From Chryseobacterium fluminis (lineage in GTDB: Bacteria > Bacteroidota > Bacteroidia > Flavobacteriales > Weeksellaceae): a stretch of DNA of 64,000 bases. Position numbers and translations under genes: made by a program. Location: assembly GCF_026314945.1 (NCBI RefSeq), contig NZ_CP111121.1, positions 310,001 through 374,000 of the forward strand, given 5' to 3'. The number at the start of each line of letters is the position of its first letter. The stretch's first letter is position 1. The notes below the pieces were generated by a model that worked only from the letters and a program-made list of their open reading frames with translations, did no database searches and was not told where the DNA came from. Below, in pieces: positions 2,584 to 21,500 of the stretch.

Positions 2584-5500
2584 TTATAATGGTTTGGTGT
2601 ACACTTCTGCTTTTATAATAGATTCACCTGCATTATTTTGATTACCAAAGTAAAAGACCGGGATACCTCCGCCGCTGCCTACCGTGGTTATATCTACAAC
2701 ACCATAAGCCCTATATCTGATATACATGGGAGTGGCCGTATTATTAGTAACCTCATCGACAAAAGAATTAGATGTAAACAGGACAACAGGATTACTGTTA
2801 CTATAAATCGAAGGTATAATGACCCTCCTTGCTGATTTTGGAATATCTACATTCTCCTTTTTTACTTTTGCTCCTACATATCCATAATGTGCAAGATTAC
2901 TTGAATTTTGGAATGTTACAGGAACGTTATAATATAAATTGACTTTTGCTTTCGAATAGGCGGGTATTGTTACGTAAACTCGTTGAGTAAGATCAAGATC
3001 TGTTACTCCGTTTCTTGAAGGATAACCAGTGAGAGGTCTAGTACGGACTTCTTCATAGATTTCATCTAAAACCCATTTACCGGAGGTGGATGTTGCCTGC
3101 CATGTTGCCACCCCATTGGCATCAGAAGTTAATACCTTTCCGGCTCCCTGGGTTCCGTCGGCAATTTTTACTTTTCCTGCTACATGAAGTTTGCTGTCGG
3201 GGGTGGAAGTTCCTATCCCGACATTCCCGTTTTCATCGATTTTCATTCTGTCGGTACCGGAAGTTTTTAAACTGAGGTCCGTCAGGTTAGTGGTTCCGTT
3301 GCCTTTATATTTGGCTGAGATTCCGGTTCCCGTTCCCCATGCGAAATTATTATTGGCTCTGGGCGTAAAGCTGATAGACCCAATATCTTCATTATTGACG
3401 AGGTTGGTAGGAGCTGCCGCGGTACCATTGGCAGAGCTGATGTAAAGAATGGGTGATTTGGAGGTGCCATATCCCCTTAAAAATACTTCTTTATCAGTAC
3501 TTACGGTCTTATTATCTGCCACCATATCCAGTTTACCCATGGGTGTGGCTATTCCTAATCCTATTCTGTCATTTTTTGCATCCACAGAGAAAGTATTTCC
3601 GTCTACCGAAAAAGCATTGGTTGCCGTTCCTGTAAAAGCTAATGTTTTATCAGCTTGTGCGATGGTTCTGTTAGCGGTAAGGGTTCCGTTGTCTGTATAT
3701 AGGTTTGTATTTTTGTCTGTAGGAAGGTCTTGCCAGGTAGCAGCTCCATTAGCATCAGAAGTTAAGACTTTGTTATTTCCCTGGGTTCCGTCGGCAATTT
3801 TTACAGAGCCTGCCACTTCTAATTTATGAGTTGGAGCACTTGTTCCTATTCCCATATTTCCATTGGCCGCAATTCTCACTTTTACAACATCATTGGTCAT
3901 CAGGTCAAGTGGGTGATTGCTTTGTGTTCCTATCCAGGCAGCATCGGTTTGTCCGTTGGATACGCCTTTTCCCAGATAGGTTCTTAAATTGATGGTTCCG
4001 TCGGAATGCTGTAGACCATATTGTTTTGTACCTGTCATAATATCCAGTTTTGTTGCAGGGGTGGCGGTTCCAACCCCGATATTTCCGTTTTCATCAATTT
4101 TAAGTCTTTCTGTACCTGAAGTCTTCAGACTCAAATCGGTAAGGCGTGTTGTACCGTTTCCTTTATATTTTGCAGATATGGCTGACCCATTTCCCCATGG
4201 AAATATATTTCCTGCATGTGGAGTGAAATCTAATCCTCCGATGTCATCATTATAGGCCAGGTTGGTGGGTACTGCTGCAGTTCCATTGGCAGAGCTGAAA
4301 TAGATTTTCGGTGATTTAGAGGTGCCATATCCCCTTAAAAATACTTCTTTATCAGTACTTACCGTCTTATTATCCGCTACCATATCCAGCTTACCCATGG
4401 GTGTGGCTATTCCTAATCCGATTCTGTCATTTTTTGCATCCACAGAGAAAGTATTTCCGTCTACCGAAAAGGCATTGGTTGCGGTTCCTGTGAACGCTAA
4501 TGTCTTATCAGTCTGTGCAATGGTTCTGTTAGCGGTCAGGGTTCCGTTATCGGTATATAAATTTGTGTTTTTATCCGTGGGAAGATCTTTCCAGCTTGCA
4601 GCACCATTGGCATCAGAAGTTAAGACCCTGTTATTTCCCTGGGTTCCGTCGGCAATTTTTACAGAGCCTGCCACGTGCAGCTTATGGGTTGGGGCGGCTG
4701 TGCCGACACCGATTCTGTCGTTGGCGGCATCCACGGAAAGCGTATTTCCGTCTATCGAAAAAGCATTGGTTGCCGTTCCGGTGAACGCTAATGTTTTATC
4801 AGTTTGCGCGATCGTTCTGTTCGCCGTAAGGGTTCCGTTATCGGTATATAGATTTGTGTTTTTATCCGCGGGAAGATCTTTCCAGGTAGCCGCTCCGTTA
4901 GCATCAGAAGTTAATACCTTGTTATTTCCCTGGGTTCCGTCTATAATTTTTATATTTCCTTCTACATGTAATTTATGGGTAGGAGCATCGGTTCCAATTC
5001 CTATATTTCCGTTTGGCAACATGGTAGCAACCGTGGTTAAATCCTGATCAGCATCTCCATAAGTGCCTTTGGCATTATTTCCTACATTAAACTGGAGTCC
5101 TTTCTCCGCTCCGGATACATTAATGGATGGACTGGCCCCGTCTGCTTTCAGCCAAAGGTTATCCCAACTGCCGAGATTTTCAGCATTTCTGACTCCCAAG
5201 ATTGCTCCGTTTCCTACAACGTCAACTTTAGCTTTAGGCAATGTTGTCCCTATTCCGATATTTCCGTTTTCATCGATTTTCATTCTGTCGGTACCGGAAG
5301 TTTTTAAACTGAGGTCCGTCAGGTTAGTAGTTCCGTTGCCTTTATATTTAGCTATAATTCCGGTTCCTGATCCCAGGCAAAATTATTATTGGCTCTGGGT
5401 GTAAAGCTGATAGACCCGATATCTTCATTATTGACGAGATTGGTAGGAGCTGCCGCGGTACCATTGGCAGAGCTGATGTAAAGAATGGGTGATTTGGAGG

Positions 5501-7073
5501 TGCCATATCCCCTTAAAAATACTTCTTTATCAGTACTTACCGTCTTATTATCCGCTACCATATCCAGCTTACCCATGGGTGTGGCTATTCCTAATCCGAT
5601 TCTGTCATTTTTTGCATCCACAGAGAAAGTATTTCCGTCTACCGAAAAGGCATTGGTTGCGGTTCCTGTGAACGCTAATGTCTTATCAGTCTGTGCGATG
5701 GTTCTGTTCGCGGTCAGGGTTCCGTTATCGGTATATAAATTTGTGTTCTTATCCGTGGGAAGGTCTTTCCAGGTGGCCGCTCCGTTGGCATCAGAAGTTA
5801 AGACCCTATTATTTGCCTGGGTTCCGTCGGCAATTTTTACAGAGCCTGCCACGTGCAGCTTATGGGTTGGGGCGGCTGTGCGGACACCGATTCTGTCATT
5901 GGCAGCGTCTACCGAAAGGGTTGTTCCGTCTACTGAAAATGCATTCGTAGCTGTTCCTGTGAATGCTAATGTTTTATTAGTTTGTGCGATGGTTCTGTTC
6001 GCCGTAAGGATTCCGTTATCCGTATATAAATTTGTATTTATATCTGCGGGAAGGTCTTTCCAGGTAGCAGCCCCGTTGGCATCAGAAGTTAAGACCCTGT
6101 TATTTCCCTGGGTTCCGTCGGCAATTTTCACAGAGCCTGCCACGTGCAGCTTATGCGTCGGGGCGGCTGTTCCGACACCGATTCTGTCGTTTTTCGCATC
6201 TACAGATAAAGTACTTCCATCTACCGAAAATGCATTGGTCTCAGTAGCTTTGAATGCCAGATTTTTATTGGTTTGATCAATGGTACGATTTGAAGAAAGA
6301 ATTCCGTCTTCATCATAAATGTTGCCTTCCTTATCATTTTGATTCAGCATTTTTACCCATACATTTCCGTCAAAATAATAATATCCGGGAGCATCGATAT
6401 GGATAGCGTTTCCGGTTTGTGTTCCTGTATCAATACTATTTACAAAAAGTAAGGTTGATAGCGGAATGTTTTGCATCGACTGTGCCCTTAACCTGGTAAC
6501 CCTTGGAATAAGAATCCCTTCTGGAGTAACAGCGTTTCCGGTCATTTCCGCCGCCGGAATGGCAAGATTAATTGCCGGAGTTGATGTTCCGATACCCACT
6601 CTGTTATTGGCGGCATCCACGGAAAAAGTATTTCCGTCTACCGAGAAGGCGTTGGTTTCAGTCGCCGTAAAAGCGAGTTTGTGCGTTCCGTGTGCTACGG
6701 TACGGTTACTTTTCAGGGCGCCGTCGGCATCATAAAGCGCCGCGGTAGATTCCGGTTTCATCTTTACCCATGTATTGCCTTCATAGAAATAAAAACCGGT
6801 TGCATCGATATTGATCGCCGATCCGGTAGCCGATCCGGTAGCAATATCATCTACATAAATCATCGTGGATGGGATTACGCCATCCATCGACTGGGCTCTC
6901 TGCCGGTCTACTCTGGGAATGAGCAGGCCTTCCGGGGCTTTTGTATTGCCTTTGGCATTTTTAGCCGTGATGTCTAAAGTAGACTGAGGATTTGGGGTGT
7001 TGATTCCGACCTGGCCGTAAGCCACATTTGCGGTTACTAATAGAATACATGCTAAACCCAATTTCTTTTTCAT
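2584..7073 (-). pseudogene. Giant repeat-built secreted surface/tail-fibre-like protein, frameshifted
   Basis: A gene of about 1,496 codons split into 573 N-terminal residues (7073-5352) and a second part (from about 5,350 down to 2584). It starts with a signal peptide (MKKKLGLACILLV...AYG) followed by QVGINT and a module containing IPRVDRQRAQSM that recurs in the four smaller paralogues at 19002-23032. The body is built from repeated modules: IADGTQGNN-VLTSDANGAATW, NTNLYTDNGTLTANRTIAQ, FSVDGNTFSVDA-NDRIG, APTHKLHVAG. The last ~180 residues are unique and may be a binding domain. No T9SS C-terminal sorting signal is evident. The break is near 5373-5376, where GGG stands in place of the GGGG expected from the other repeat copies; one added G gives W-G-S-G-T-G and restores the frame. 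It resembles phage tail-fibre or trimeric adhesin stalks in layout, but the function is not known. A TPR/HTH regulator gene lies upstream. Confidence 0.75.
3230..5690. repeat. Near-identical long intragenic DNA repeats
   Basis: Blocks beginning near 3230, 4100 and 5275 share long stretches that are almost identical at the DNA level. Examples are the segments reading GTGCCATATCCCCTTAAAAA at 3463, 4321 and 5500, and the adjoining module boundary sequence. The 3230-3660 and 5275-5690 blocks are the closest pair. This indicates recent internal duplication or gene conversion. The repeats also create long spurious antisense reading frames. Confidence 0.8.
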
Positions 7074-7360
7074 AGTGTCTTGTTTTGATTTTCTGATTTG
7101 CTTTGATGATTCAAAATATAAGATCAGGTGGGATCCTTTATTTTATGTTTCTGTCTTTCATATTGACAGGGCAAAGTTGGAAAAAAAACAAGGAAAAAGA
7201 GCTACTACATGGATACTACAGGATTTTAAATGATTGATTTTTAGTTATTTGTATTTTAATTGTAGTTCTGTTGTAGCAGGTGCAGATTTTTAATTTCTCA
7301 GATCATATCCGGGAAATATATCTGTTTTGAGGCAAAAGAATTTATAAAATCGGTCATCTT

Positions 7361-8782
7361 TTATAATGTATTGATCCATGTCACAAGATCGACCTCAGCA
7401 GGAAGGTTGAGTTTCTTTTTTAGCCGGTACCTTTTGGTCTGGATCGCACGCACGGTAACATTTTCCAGTCTGCTGATGTCTTTATTGTCCAGATTTAATT
7501 TGATGTAGGCGCAGGACTTCAGATCATGATCGGTAAGGTCAGGAGTATGGGCCATCAGCTTTTCGTAAAATTCATGAAATATTTCTTTAAATTTTACCAT
7601 TAAAAAAGGATCGCCTTCTTTGGCCAGCTGAATAATTTCATCGTAGGCATCACCGGCTTTCTTTTTGAGCACCTCTACCTGTTGGGTCTGGGTCTCAATA
7701 AGGCGGTCTTTATTTTTTTGATGTTTCAGGTATTTCCTACGGATTACAAAAAAGACCGTCAGCAACAGAATAATAATACCTCCCGCGATTGCGTAAAGCC
7801 TTTTTTTTTCTTTCTGTTCCTCCTGCTTCTGTTCCTGAAGGATTCTTTCAACGGCATGAGCCATTACTTTCTTTTCACTCAGGTTAATGGAGTCATTCAG
7901 CACGGTAAACTTTAAAAAGTAGCGGGCTGACTCTTCGGAATTGCCAAGAAGTTTATAGATGTCGGAAACATTTTTAAATCCCTCTCTTACATCTGTCTTA
8001 TGTTTAGATTTTCGGGAGATTTCAAGAGACTGCAGATAATAGGATAATGCTTTCTGATAATCGCCTTTCACTTTAAATAAATGCCCGAAATTCTCCAGGG
8101 TTTTGGAAGTGCTGTACTGAGCCTTTGTAAGATTGCTCGACAATGACTTGTTAAGATAATATTCTGCGGAATCGAGATGAACTTTCCGGGTGATAAAATC
8201 ATCTGCTATTTTAATGTATGTCATCGTGGGGTCTGTGGCATACTTCAGGCATCGGTCCCGCATGCTGTAGGCAGAATCCGGCATTTTGAGCATCTCAAAA
8301 TTATACCATTTCCAGGAATAGTTATGATACAGAAATTTTTTCCGGTTTTCCTGATCTTTTACTTTTTTCAGAGAGACCAGCGCTTTATCCAGGTTTTTAT
8401 TGGACTCTCTGAATAAATGAATTTTTGAATAATAAACGCCGTAATTGGTATATAATTTTGAATAAAGAAACGGGTTTTGTCCGGCATCGATATGATTCTT
8501 TGCATCATCCAGATATTTCAGGCCGAGATCATACTTTCCGAGCAGATCCATATAGTTGGAGATGAAAATATCTGCAGAAGCAATACCCTCGTTGTTTTTA
8601 TTGCTTTTAAAAAACTCCAGGGCGCTCAGATTAAATTCCAGTGCTTCTTCGAATTTCCCTTCAGCAGCATATTTCTCATTGATCCTGCCCAGTGTACGCA
8701 GATCATATTGCTGCCCGGAGACAACAGAGGTCAGGCCGAAAAACAACAGCATAAGAAATGTCAAAAAGCTTTTGAGCGGCAT
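7361..8782 (-). CDS. TPR sensor with transmembrane segment and LuxR-type HTH
   Basis: A 473-residue protein with a signal peptide or N-terminal anchor, several tetratricopeptide-like helical repeats over about residues 30-310 and a transmembrane helix near 328-348. A charged coiled-coil follows, and a C-terminal helix-turn-helix (about 410-473, containing NKDISRLENVTVRAIQTKRY) resembles LuxR/GerE DNA-binding domains. This one-protein layout, periplasmic TPR sensor to cytoplasmic HTH, is widespread in Flavobacteriia. ATG 8782 is preferred over an in-frame TTG at 8803, because the TTG lies inside the -7 promoter box. The gene sits 288 bp upstream of the large surface-protein gene on the same strand, so control of that gene is plausible but unproven. 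Confidence 0.85.
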   Translation of the reverse strand: MPLKSFLTFLMLLFFGLTSVVSGQQYDLRTLGRINEKYAAEGKFEEALEFNLSALEFFKSNKNNEGIASADIFISNYMDLLGKYDLGLKYLDDAKNHIDAGQNPFLYSKLYTNYGVYYSKIHLFRESNKNLDKALVSLKKVKDQENRKKFLYHNYSWKWYNFEMLKMPDSAYSMRDRCLKYATDPTMTYIKIADDFITRKVHLDSAEYYLNKSLSSNLTKAQYSTSKTLENFGHLFKVKGDYQKALSYYLQSLEISRKSKHKTDVREGFKNVSDIYKLLGNSEESARYFLKFTVLNDSINLSEKKVMAHAVERILQEQKQEEQKEKKRLYAIAGGIIILLLTVFFVIRRKYLKHQKNKDRLIETQTQQVEVLKKKAGDAYDEIIQLAKEGDPFLMVKFKEIFHEFYEKLMAHTPDLTDHDLKSCAYIKLNLDNKDISRLENVTVRAIQTKRYRLKKKLNLPAEVDLVTWINTL

Positions 8783-8800
8783 AGTATTTAATTTTTTAAT

Positions 8801-8808
8801 CAAAAATA
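8801..8808 (-). promoter_or_regulatory. Bacteroidetes -7 box (TATTTTTG) of the TPR/HTH gene
   Basis: On the minus strand the sequence is TATTTTTG, matching TAnnTTTG, about 18 bp before ATG 8782. The 5' leader would be only about 10-12 nt. Confidence 0.6.
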
Positions 8809-8910
8809 AGTATTTACAGTTAAATTAAAGGGTTTGAAATACTTTTGATTAAAAAGATAAGGAATTTCATCTATATATACTGCTCATAATTGCCCGATTA
8901 TATGGTGATA

Positions 8911-8938
8911 AAAAAGAATCCGCCCTTTAGGAGCGGAT
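8911..8938 (-). terminator. Orphan minus-strand terminator
   Basis: ATCCGC at 8918-8923 pairs with GCGGAT at 8933-8938. On the minus strand the stem is followed by TTCTTTTTTATC. The only gene to the right reads the other way, so its transcript is unidentified. Confidence 0.65.
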
Positions 8939-8980
8939 CCAGTAGATAAATACATCTCATTTTTTTAATTAGACAACAAT

Positions 8981-9009
8981 AAAAAAGCATAGCCGACAAT
9001 GCTATGCTT
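8981..9009 (-). terminator. Second orphan terminator, perfect 9-bp stem
   Basis: AAGCATAGC (8985-8993) pairs perfectly with GCTATGCTT (9001-9009) around CGACAAT. TTTTTT follows on the minus strand. A weaker T tract on the plus side makes a bidirectional role possible. Confidence 0.7.
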
Positions 9010-14466: not shown

Positions 14467-15435
14467 ATGATTAACACAAATTTTAAATCTGTCTTAGAAT
14501 TATTACAGACTTTCTCGACAGAGCAGGTATGCATTGATTACCTGGAACAAATGAGATGGGGCGGAATTATTTCGAGCCCGTTCGATGCTGAATCTAAAGT
14601 ATACCGATGCAGTAAGAACCGATATAAATGTAAGAATACCGGTAAATATTTCAATGCTAAAACCGGGACCATGTTTGAAAATACGAAAGTAGGACTGCAG
14701 AAATGGTTCCTGGCCATATGGCTGGTCACCTCCTATAAAAAAGGAATTACATCCATTCAGCTGGCCAGGGACATTGATGTTACCCAAAAAACAGCCTGGT
14801 TTTTACTCCAGAGGATCCGGAGCTGTTTCGGGATCGAAAACAGCAATGAACTCGAAGGTGTTGTAGAATGTGATGAAACTTTTATCGGCGGAAAAAATAA
14901 AAACCGGCACAAGGACAAGAAAGCAAAAAAAGCACAGGGCAGGAACTTTACTGATAAAATACCGGTTATGGGAATGCTGCAGCGGGGAGGAAAGATGAAT
15001 GCCTTTGTGGTTACCGATACCCGGAAAAACAGCATACAGCCCCTGATTTATAAGTATGTGAGCCGGGATACCCGGCTGATCAGTGATGAATGGTGGGGCT
15101 ATAGCGGTCTGGATAAAAATTATAACCATCAGGTTGTTGATCATTCCAGAAAGGAATATGTGAGTCTCCGGGACAGCACGGTACATACGAATAATATAGA
15201 AGGCTGCTGGAAGATCCTCAAAAGCTCCGTATCCGGAATGTACAACCACGTTTCCCGGAAGCATCTCCAGAAGTATGTGGATGAATTTCTGTATAAATTT
15301 AATCTGAGGGAGATTTCGGATAGTGATAAGTTCAGATATCTGATTCTTAACAGTGATGTGCGGACAAAATACAAAGATTTGATTTTTATAGAAAATTGTA
15401 ATAAATTACCGAATATTCCGAAGCCTTACCACTAA
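14467..15435 (+). CDS. IS1595-family (ISXO2-like) transposase
   Basis: A 322-residue DDE transposase. The N-terminal third is a short zinc-ribbon-like region (WGGIISSPF...YRCSKNRYKC) followed by an HTH (GITSIQLARDIDVTQKTAWFLLQRIR). The catalytic ISXO2-like domain follows: VECDETFIGG with Asp near 134, LISDEWWGY with Asp near 206 and HTNNIEGCWKILK with Glu near 246. The frame is complete and uninterrupted, so the enzyme may be active. The start ATG has no strong Shine-Dalgarno, as is usual in Bacteroidetes. Confidence 0.93.
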   Translation: MINTNFKSVLELLQTFSTEQVCIDYLEQMRWGGIISSPFDAESKVYRCSKNRYKCKNTGKYFNAKTGTMFENTKVGLQKWFLAIWLVTSYKKGITSIQLARDIDVTQKTAWFLLQRIRSCFGIENSNELEGVVECDETFIGGKNKNRHKDKKAKKAQGRNFTDKIPVMGMLQRGGKMNAFVVTDTRKNSIQPLIYKYVSRDTRLISDEWWGYSGLDKNYNHQVVDHSRKEYVSLRDSTVHTNNIEGCWKILKSSVSGMYNHVSRKHLQKYVDEFLYKFNLREISDSDKFRYLILNSDVRTKYKDLIFIENCNKLPNIPKPYH

Positions 15436-20744: not shown

Positions 20745-21500
20745 TCATTTAATATAACTTGCATTAAATGACATTGAAATCGGGCGACAATTCATATTAG
20801 CTCCGCTTGTAGTCCCGTTGTTACTGGTTCTGGTCATTCGTATATCTAAGGTATGTGGGCCAGCCGCTAAAGATTTTACCGTATTCAGAGTAAACTGTGT
20901 GCTTAATGCTCCCTGCCCATATTCCTGAACACGCAGAAAAGCGTCAGTAGCAGTTCCGTCTATATATAATCTTGATTCGTAGAATCCTACTCCCGAACCT
21001 GCTGGTGCCGTTCCTACGAAATCAATCCCTAACATAAAATTAATGAAAAGTGCTTTTCCTTCTGCAGGTATTGTAACAGATTGGGAAGTTCCCGGAACGA
21101 TAGTAGTCGCGAGATCATTGACATTAAAGTCCGCTCCTGTGGTACTGTCTACGGATAAAGAGAAAATAGAAGTCCCGGTATTGAGTTTTACCCAGACGTT
21201 GTCGTTAAAATAATAATATCCTGTATCCGTAATATTTACAGCCGTCCCAGATGCTGTCCCGGTAGCAATGCTGTTCACATAAATTAGCGTAGAAGCAGAT
21301 ACGCCCGTCATGCTTTGAGCTCTTTGTCGGTCTACCCGGGGTACCAGTAATCCATCTACGTTGCTGCTTGCACCGGTTGTATTTTTTGCGACGATATCCA
21401 TAGTTGAATTGGGCACATCTGTATTTATACCAACTTGCGCGTTGAGTTTCAGTGAAAAAGCAAATGTAATGATGACTATAGTTACAATAATTTTTATCAT
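20745..21500 (-). CDS. Secreted QVGI-type surface protein (paralogue 2)
   Basis: A 251-residue protein. The signal peptide (ending KLNA) is followed by QVGINTDVPNSTMDIVAKN, then the module VDGLLVPRVDRQRAQSMTG with SIATGTASGTAVNIT and YYYFND-VWVKLN, which also occurs in the giant protein. A C-terminal beta-rich domain of about 130 residues (SVTIPAEGKALFINFMLG...TLDIRMTRT) is shared with the next two genes. It is the last gene of a compact minus-strand operon, 18 bp after its neighbour. The function is unknown; a secreted, probably multimeric surface structure is inferred. Confidence 0.75.
   Translation of the reverse strand: MIKIIVTIVIITFAFSLKLNAQVGINTDVPNSTMDIVAKNTTGASSNVDGLLVPRVDRQRAQSMTGVSASTLIYVNSIATGTASGTAVNITDTGYYYFNDNVWVKLNTGTSIFSLSVDSTTGADFNVNDLATTIVPGTSQSVTIPAEGKALFINFMLGIDFVGTAPAGSGVGFYESRLYIDGTATDAFLRVQEYGQGALSTQFTLNTVKSLAAGPHTLDIRMTRTSNNGTTSGANMNCRPISMSFNASYIK

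Follow-up and report, generated by a model that had tools for sequence, protein, structure and literature searches.

A 64,000-nucleotide stretch of the Chryseobacterium fluminis genome (NCBI RefSeq assembly GCF_026314945.1, contig NZ_CP111121.1, positions 310,001 to 374,000 of the forward strand), hereafter the window, contains two adjacent genes that encode a putative membrane regulator with tetratricopeptide repeats (TPRs) and a repeat-built fibre protein. The genome amounts to 5.07 Mb in two contigs. The best reading of the locus, which we consider reasonably probable, is a one-component switch in which the regulator activates the neighbouring fibre gene. A regulatory link of some kind between these two genes is held with good confidence, and activation appears preferable to repression. 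The gene facts of the locus are certain: as the sequence-only reading had stated, both genes are found on the minus strand (regulator 7361-8782, fibre 2584-7073), the fibre start being located 287 bp downstream of the regulator. The main features are listed in Table 1.

Co-localisation and the direct repeat

In order to evaluate the association, 60 regulator clusters were taken by E-value order from a longer list, leaving out matches limited to the helix-turn-helix (HTH) domain and merging neighbours. Each locus was fetched with about 6 kb of flank on each side (less at contig ends), and 40 evenly placed regions of the same genomes served as controls. Four window proteins supplied the seed for a profile of the opening module, with which the fibre begins, and this profile was then iterated over the open reading frames (ORFs) of regulator and control loci. 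Genes carrying this module are present in 34 of the 60 regulator loci and in one of the 40 controls (78 ORFs in 798 kb versus one in 536 kb). The reverse set consisted of 40 loci, chosen regardless of regulators as the top matches of a genus search with the opening module; neighbours were merged and one locus already among the earlier ones was left out. A TPR-HTH regulator of at least 350 aa was found in 19 of these with a broad profile, which also takes in AraC-type HTHs, and in nine with a strict criterion, versus one and none of the 40 controls, respectively. The single control regulator lies in L119, also the site of the single control opening-module gene. The dedicated regulator suggested by the sequence-only reading, together with the co-occurrence proposed there as a check, is thus supported in both directions, as well as by an operator-like repeat between the two window genes. 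The pairing is frequent, not obligatory. Two further opening-module loci of the C. fluminis genome show no TPR-HTH regulator. In four loci devoid of such a regulator (L389, L390, L391 and L393), the sequence TGAAGTAGAATTGAAGTA was observed about 0.8-1.1 kb upstream of opening-module genes.

The upstream regions were first scanned for direct repeats whose copies match exactly over 7 bases or more. A spacing of 11 was encountered in 14 of 84 opening-module genes, versus 0-5 for other spacings and 8 of 332 for the controls at spacing 11. The common form of these repeats is TGNNNTA-N4-TGNNNTA, with a triplet varying by locus. Exact TGNNNTA pairs in the 60 regulator loci and the window number 36 at spacing 11, whereas every other spacing in the range 8-30 gives 0-5; the 40 controls display none at spacing 11 and 0-3 elsewhere. 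The exact spacing-11 repeat is held by 28 of the 60 regulator loci, 4 of the 40 module loci and none of the controls. Allowing at most one mismatch, TGTAGTA-N4-TGTAGTA occurs once in the C. fluminis genome, at 7203-7220, between regulator and fibre. Across 108 genomes of the genus, the exact TGTAGTA pair occurs 57 times at spacing 11, where the reversed word is found 28 times by our count; at spacing 12, the pair occurs 27 times. A regulator lies within 1.5 kb of 27 of the 29 spacing-11 sites fetched out of the 57 (C. fluminis left out), versus none of the 20 spacing-12 sites fetched out of the 27 by phmmer and one by a broader hidden Markov model. Most of these 27 sites belong to one recurring arrangement of tandem regulators and a candidate small RNA, and are therefore not independent. 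For another triplet, 14 of 30 fetched TGATGTA sites (of 42) at spacing 11 have a regulator or an opening-module gene no more than 1.5 kb away, versus 0 of 25 at spacing 12; among sites of genomes that did not belong to the discovery set, the proportion is 10 of 19.

We take TAnnTTTG to be the consensus of the -7 element, and CAACTTTG is called a candidate -7 element on this basis. Downstream of 42 repeats, eight of eleven exact TAnnTTTG occurrences are located at 40, 41, 50 or 51 bases (50, five times; 51, 40, 41, 21, 29 and 91, once each). For repeats at twelve other spacings the distances are 74 (once) and 78 (twice). No paper on the regulator/fibre pair or its operator was found in the open-licence PubMed Central literature, and the occurrence of TGNNNTA-N4-TGNNNTA repeats near TPR-HTH regulators is new here.

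The closest regulator among 173 genomes of the genus (nine candidates scored in each) is found in L402, with 62% identity; other matches at E<1e-100 show 39-44%. The order in L402 is that of the window, the regulator being followed by a TAG repeat that contains one mismatch and then by a fibre whose N-terminus is similar. Other neighbours are preceded by the repeat as well. In L047 and L048, it lies 98 and 89 bp, respectively, before a 390- or 389-aa gene adjoining the regulator; the L047 product looks like a serine hydrolase, as judged from its sequence rather than by search. Eight of the loci between L085 and L103 have the repeat ahead of a short non-coding stretch, which is conserved and contains a terminator hairpin.

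A number of results weigh against the proposed switch. The form TGNNNTA was chosen after viewing the matches in the same 60 loci, and many of the sites are orthologous, so that the counts overstate their independence. The 40 module loci, an independent set, give a weak excess of TGNNNTA pairs at spacing 11 (6 versus 0-4 elsewhere), and the 20 named loci holding relatives of the fibre's C-terminal head domain give none (2 versus 0-4). A mismatch-tolerant scan separates spacing 11 weakly (17 of 84 genes at 9 of 11 matches versus 3-10), and most of the contrast is lost when the two triplets are free to differ (103 versus 27-69 at twelve other spacings). Genus-wide, 4 of 30 fetched TGCAGTR/A sites and 6 of 30 fetched TGAAGTA sites have a regulator within 1.5 kb. 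With at most one mismatch, the reversed word matches twice in the C. fluminis genome; it is therefore the place of the operator, not its count, that carries weight. Finally, 26 of the 60 regulator loci contain no opening-module gene in the fetched flanks which, together with the hydrolase-like gene and candidate small RNA as alternative neighbours, indicates that the regulator family is not fibre-specific.

Tandem TPR-HTH regulators accompanied by a TGTAGTA repeat, a -7 element and a conserved non-coding stretch of about 90 nt with a terminator were noted in L085, L090, L093, L095, L099, L101, L102, L103 and most of L207-L234. This arrangement was recognized by eye at 26 of 30 TAG sites (17 of 30 by a simple script test) and is present in 11 of 39 genomes, C. 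fluminis not being one of them. One of the twelve predicted base pairs of the stretch displays a two-sided change among 24 sequences, and no Rfam match was obtained there in the four loci scanned.

Recognition helix and repeat triplet

The recognition helix of the window regulator is ENVTVRAIQTKRYRLKKK. Regulators with a helix of the form R-X-[IVAT]-[EQ]-[TSA]-[KR] were selected with a filter written after the helices were seen, and a script counted, over the fetched loci, those with a near-perfect site of triplet xAG within 1.5 kb. Among 31 unique regulators, 18 have such a site and residue X tracks the first base of the triplet in 17 of them: Ala with T (7), Thr with C (4) and Gly with A (6). 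The controls contain one near-perfect xAG site in 536 kb. With Thr and CAG in L191 versus Ala and TAG in L403, two regulators of 64.7% identity differ at the residue and at the base as the code predicts; this difference is therefore not a matter of mere ancestry. A permutation of the mutual information, with relatives collapsed to ten units, gave p ~0.002, seven of these units being the source of the rule. L402, L403 and L408, which came to light once the rule had been fixed, agree with it, and so do L384 (Thr-C, missed by the filter) and L382 and L383 (Gly-A, like the L044 group). In L385 and L388 (Thr), a CAG site lies before the first gene of the same cluster, more than 1.5 kb from the regulator.

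Three observations go the other way. L407 (Ala-A), also seen after the rule was set, breaks the code; 13 of the 31 regulators of this helix form lack a near-perfect xAG site within 1.5 kb; and regulators with other helix forms (L386, L387, L394, L395 and L396) fall off the code. On balance, a one-residue specificity code seems to us moderately likely. If true, it would make the targets of many such regulators predictable from sequence and open the choice of expressed surface proteins in these bacteria to direct experiment. A wider proposal, which we advance tentatively and with slightly less than even confidence, is that of genus-wide insulated cassettes: each TPR regulator would read its own 11-bp-spaced TGNNNTA repeat by a residue-to-base code, the target being readable from the recognition helix, and drive a target of its own, whether a surface fibre, a secreted enzyme or a small RNA. 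Either way, a regulator family and an opening-module surface-protein family, both without a name in the libraries scanned, become a system with testable DNA sites.

Proteins and other features of the locus

The sequence-only reading described the regulator as a membrane sensor with TPRs and a LuxR-type HTH. Its TPRs score above the Pfam cut-off (TPR_12, E=1e-11) and its transmembrane segment is strong, which sustains the first part of this description. The C-terminal HTH gives sub-threshold matches only (GerE, E=0.11; Sigma70_r4_2, E=0.07): the GerE profile PF00196 scores 12.6 bits versus a cut-off of 23.5, and the best of eight relatives scanned (L192) reaches 21.4 bits, also below it. The protein is hence labeled LuxR-like only. 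With TPRs, a transmembrane segment and a weakly matched HTH in one chain, it displays the layout of a one-component TPR sensor. Judging from the N-terminal hydrophobic segment and the order of the segments, the TPR side would be periplasmic. In the sequence, ATG at 8782 is a more likely start than TTG at 8803. The family is large and paralogous, with up to 27 matches in one genome when HTH-only ones are counted. A second class of TPR proteins of about 550-590 aa, some with an AraC-type HTH, was seen adjoining opening-module genes (L167, L169, L183, L184, L185, L188, L200, L201 and others).

Table 1. Positions of the main features of the window
Feature	Position	Strand	Description
Regulator, 473 aa	7361..8782	-	N-terminal signal/anchor, TPR sensor, transmembrane segment aa 329-347, C-terminal LuxR-like HTH
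Candidate operator TGTAGTA-TCCA-TGTAGTA, 11-bp direct repeat	7203..7220	-	130 bp before fibre start
Candidate -7 element CAACTTTG	7172..7179	-	One letter off TAnnTTTG; 41 bases from the operator's first base
Fibre ORF1, 573 aa	5352..7073	-	Signal peptide; opening module at ~aa 21-105; second IPRVTRLRAQSM module; first four of the stalk repeats
Fibre ORF2, 899 aa, in a different frame	2584..5283	-	Stalk repeats 5-7, further modules, C-terminal head domain
All-beta head domain of 165 aa, predicted to be a TNF/C1q-like jelly roll	2587..3081	-	End of fibre ORF2
Small secreted protein, 248 aa	22286..23032	-	Fibre's opening module, different C-terminal domain
Small secreted protein, 250 aa	21519..22271	-	Fibre's opening module
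Small secreted protein, 251 aa	20745..21500	-	Fibre's opening module
Small secreted protein, 245 aa	19002..19739	-	QVGI start, without IPRVDR motif

The fibre had been read as a single secreted protein of about 1,500 aa built of repeats. Its repeated and secreted nature is confirmed by a signal peptide (judged by eye), seven Y..DG.L..NRT stalk units and eleven IGIGT-like motifs, and Tandem Repeats Finder reports repeat units of 291 bp in the gene. There is, on the other hand, no such single ORF: the gene is split into two ORFs in different frames. Neither reached a Pfam or NCBIfam cut-off. The opening module of ORF1 carries QVGI and IPRVDRQRAQSM; of the four small proteins said to share it, three (starting at 20745, 21519 and 22286) carry IPRVDRQRAQSM and the fourth (19002) has the QVGI start only. 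Middle modules of the fibre (SGSWDN.WL... and GFGTSK.P...SSANGT) were noted near the N-terminus of other fibres in L404 and L415, from which the modules seem to be shuffled between genes.

The C-terminal head domain is distinct but, contrary to the sequence-only reading, not unique: relatives of the last 165 aa exist in 10 of 39 genomes, all Chryseobacterium and C. fluminis included, and in the 20 named loci (19 Chryseobacterium, one Riemerella). The family is conserved along its whole length. It reached no Pfam cut-off, and the sequence-profile search of the PDB gave no convincing relative (best E=0.14). An AlphaFold model built from 12 sequences (predicted local distance difference test, pLDDT, 81; predicted template modelling score, pTM, 0.77) contains eight strands, and Foldseek retrieved 31 PDB matches at E<=0.001. 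By our own count, 25 of them are TNF/C1q-like jelly rolls; Pgp3, the BC2L-C lectin, BxpB, ExsFA, C1QL2, EDA-A1 and the PLTL lectin are among them. The remainder comprises five phage tail, baseplate or fibre proteins and one poliovirus chain. The scores are low (template modelling score, TM-score, <=0.48 by query and <=0.56 by target), a point of weakness: topology is therefore supported and close relation is not. With this reservation, the model makes a TNF/C1q-like jelly roll quite probable. The head was also considered as an enzyme, and this was rejected as no family matched and the fold matches are jelly rolls; instead of the unrelated enzyme envisaged as a possible refutation by the sequence-only reading, the model resembles TNF/C1q-like lectins, exosporium proteins and phage fibre tips. 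An adhesin or lectin role of the fibre is conceivable, at somewhat less than even chances.

Upstream of the window regulator, a candidate small RNA of about 100 nt was noted on the minus strand (8907-9009); it contains two hairpins, with a run of Ts after the second. The stretch is 93% identical in L402, with changes in both hairpins that appear compensating by eye, and 91% identical in L384, a different locus; its single Rfam match is sub-threshold (E=0.21). An AraC-type regulator (1482-2396) is present beside the fibre end, and an IS1595-family transposase (14467-15435) lies between the fibre locus and the small-protein cluster.

Proposed mechanism, alternatives and known systems

The proposed switch can be summarized as follows. 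The regulator would span the inner membrane, the TPR superhelix lying on the periplasmic side and the HTH on the cytoplasmic side. Binding or loss of a ligand by the TPR domain (a peptide, a fibre export intermediate or an outside signal) would allow an HTH dimer to act on the two TGTAGTA half-sites which, being 11 bp or about one turn apart, would expose the same DNA face 41 bases from the -7 element. The dimer bound at the operator would activate the fibre promoter. The fibre, owing to its signal peptide, would then be exported by Sec and probably presented on the surface as an oligomer, likely a trimer, whose stalk bears a TNF/C1q-like head that may bind a glycan or a protein. The last steps are weakened by the lack of a type IX secretion C-terminal sorting domain in ORF2 (NCBIfam, up to E=1), which leaves the crossing of the outer membrane unexplained. 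Other family members would share this operator layout but read a different triplet, which one residue of the recognition helix would determine in part; with distinct triplets per regulator, several such switches could therefore coexist in one cell.

The most serious alternative, although improbable, would have the regulator act as a repressor, or chiefly on its own gene, with the fibre expressed when the periplasmic domain is empty or export is stalled. Periplasmic TPRs could indeed sense unassembled fibre subunits, two repeats occupy the space between regulator and divergent fibre in L044, L045, L382 and L383, and L402 has one repeat on each side of its regulator. Activator sites usually lie upstream of the promoter element rather than on it, and this is where the repeats are found: they begin 40-51 bases upstream of the -7 element and do not overlap it, which argues against repression.

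It is less probable still that the two families are bystanders, both common in Chryseobacterium and gathering in the same variable regions without any regulatory link. Opening-module matches do occur in 96 of the 108 genomes, with up to 32 each. The regulator loci devoid of the module fit this explanation, as do 16 of the 20 named head loci, in which no regulator is present in the fetched flanks (14 of these represent one orthologous group of short proteins). Mere co-residence would nevertheless predict neither an 11-bp repeat placed between the regulator and its target nor the fixed distances of this repeat from the -7 element, its place in its own genome or the correlation of residue and base.

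We assign a similarly low probability to the fibre gene being a decaying pseudogene and the locus non-functional in this strain. The gene is indeed broken in assembly GCF_026314945.1, a frame break near 5352-5373 splitting the fibre into its two ORFs. The second frame nevertheless remains open for 899 aa, and the regulator ORF and the repeat are intact. In addition, an unrelated short-chain dehydrogenase gene (540-1399) located 4.4 kb from the fibre break is also split in two frames (540-932 and 929-1399), its fragments matching adh_short positions 1-111 and 115-188, respectively. Two broken genes at this distance make assembly indels a likely cause of both frame breaks, as we infer. The L402 fibre is cut by the locus end and is therefore uninformative in this respect.

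Domestication of a phage tail fibre is very improbable: PHROGs tail-fibre profiles (phrog_9942, E=8e-36; phrog_18345, E=1e-21) and phrog_5906, of function not known, match the repeats, and tblastn retrieves 11 phage records with 24-37% identity, several of which carry annotations as tail fibre or virion proteins, but this likeness is repeat-driven, the fibre has a signal peptide, and the three neighbours scanned with Pfam (AraC regulator, NAD-binding protein and IS1595 transposase) are non-virion, the window not having been searched for virion genes. Phage capture was dropped as first choice after two peptide-pattern scans of viral contigs, mainly sensitive to close relatives, gave no confirmed relative of the head or the opening module.

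Activation of the fibre by its adjacent one-component regulator, the reading retained here, can be compared to several known systems. PhoB and the pho box offer a likeness for the operator, in that an activator dimer recognizes 11-bp direct repeats just upstream of the promoter. PhoB, however, is a response regulator of the winged-helix type that is phosphorylated, whereas the window regulator would be membrane-bound, with a LuxR-like HTH and triplets varying within its family. The head resembles the N-terminal domain of the BC2L-C lectin, the Photorhabdus PLTL lectin, the C-terminal domain of Chlamydia Pgp3 and BxpB/ExsFA, all of which are single all-beta jelly-roll domains of about 130-165 aa, and differs from them in sequence (10-16% identity, TM-scores up to 0.56). 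The phage profiles phrog_9942 and phrog_18345 share stalk repeats of the IGIGT..P..KL.V kind with the fibre, which differs in being chromosomal and in having a signal peptide, another head and an adjoining regulator. Regulator residues 406-467 align with the BT3442 family NF053779 (E=1.6e-6), yet at 27 bits versus a cut-off of 940 the protein is not a member. The match to the NCBIfam FimS profile is confined to the TPR stretch (aa 232-328, E=1.3e-4), and no histidine kinase domain was matched with Pfam or NCBIfam, which places the regulator outside the FimS-type sensor kinases. According to PMC11053733, the FimS/FimR system of Porphyromonas gingivalis, with its membrane sensor bearing multiple periplasmic TPRs, controls surface fimbriae in response to a signal that is not known. 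Both cases would thus involve a Bacteroidota membrane TPR sensor tied to a surface structure; FimS is a histidine kinase working with a separate response regulator, whereas the window protein combines TPRs, transmembrane segment and HTH in a single chain.

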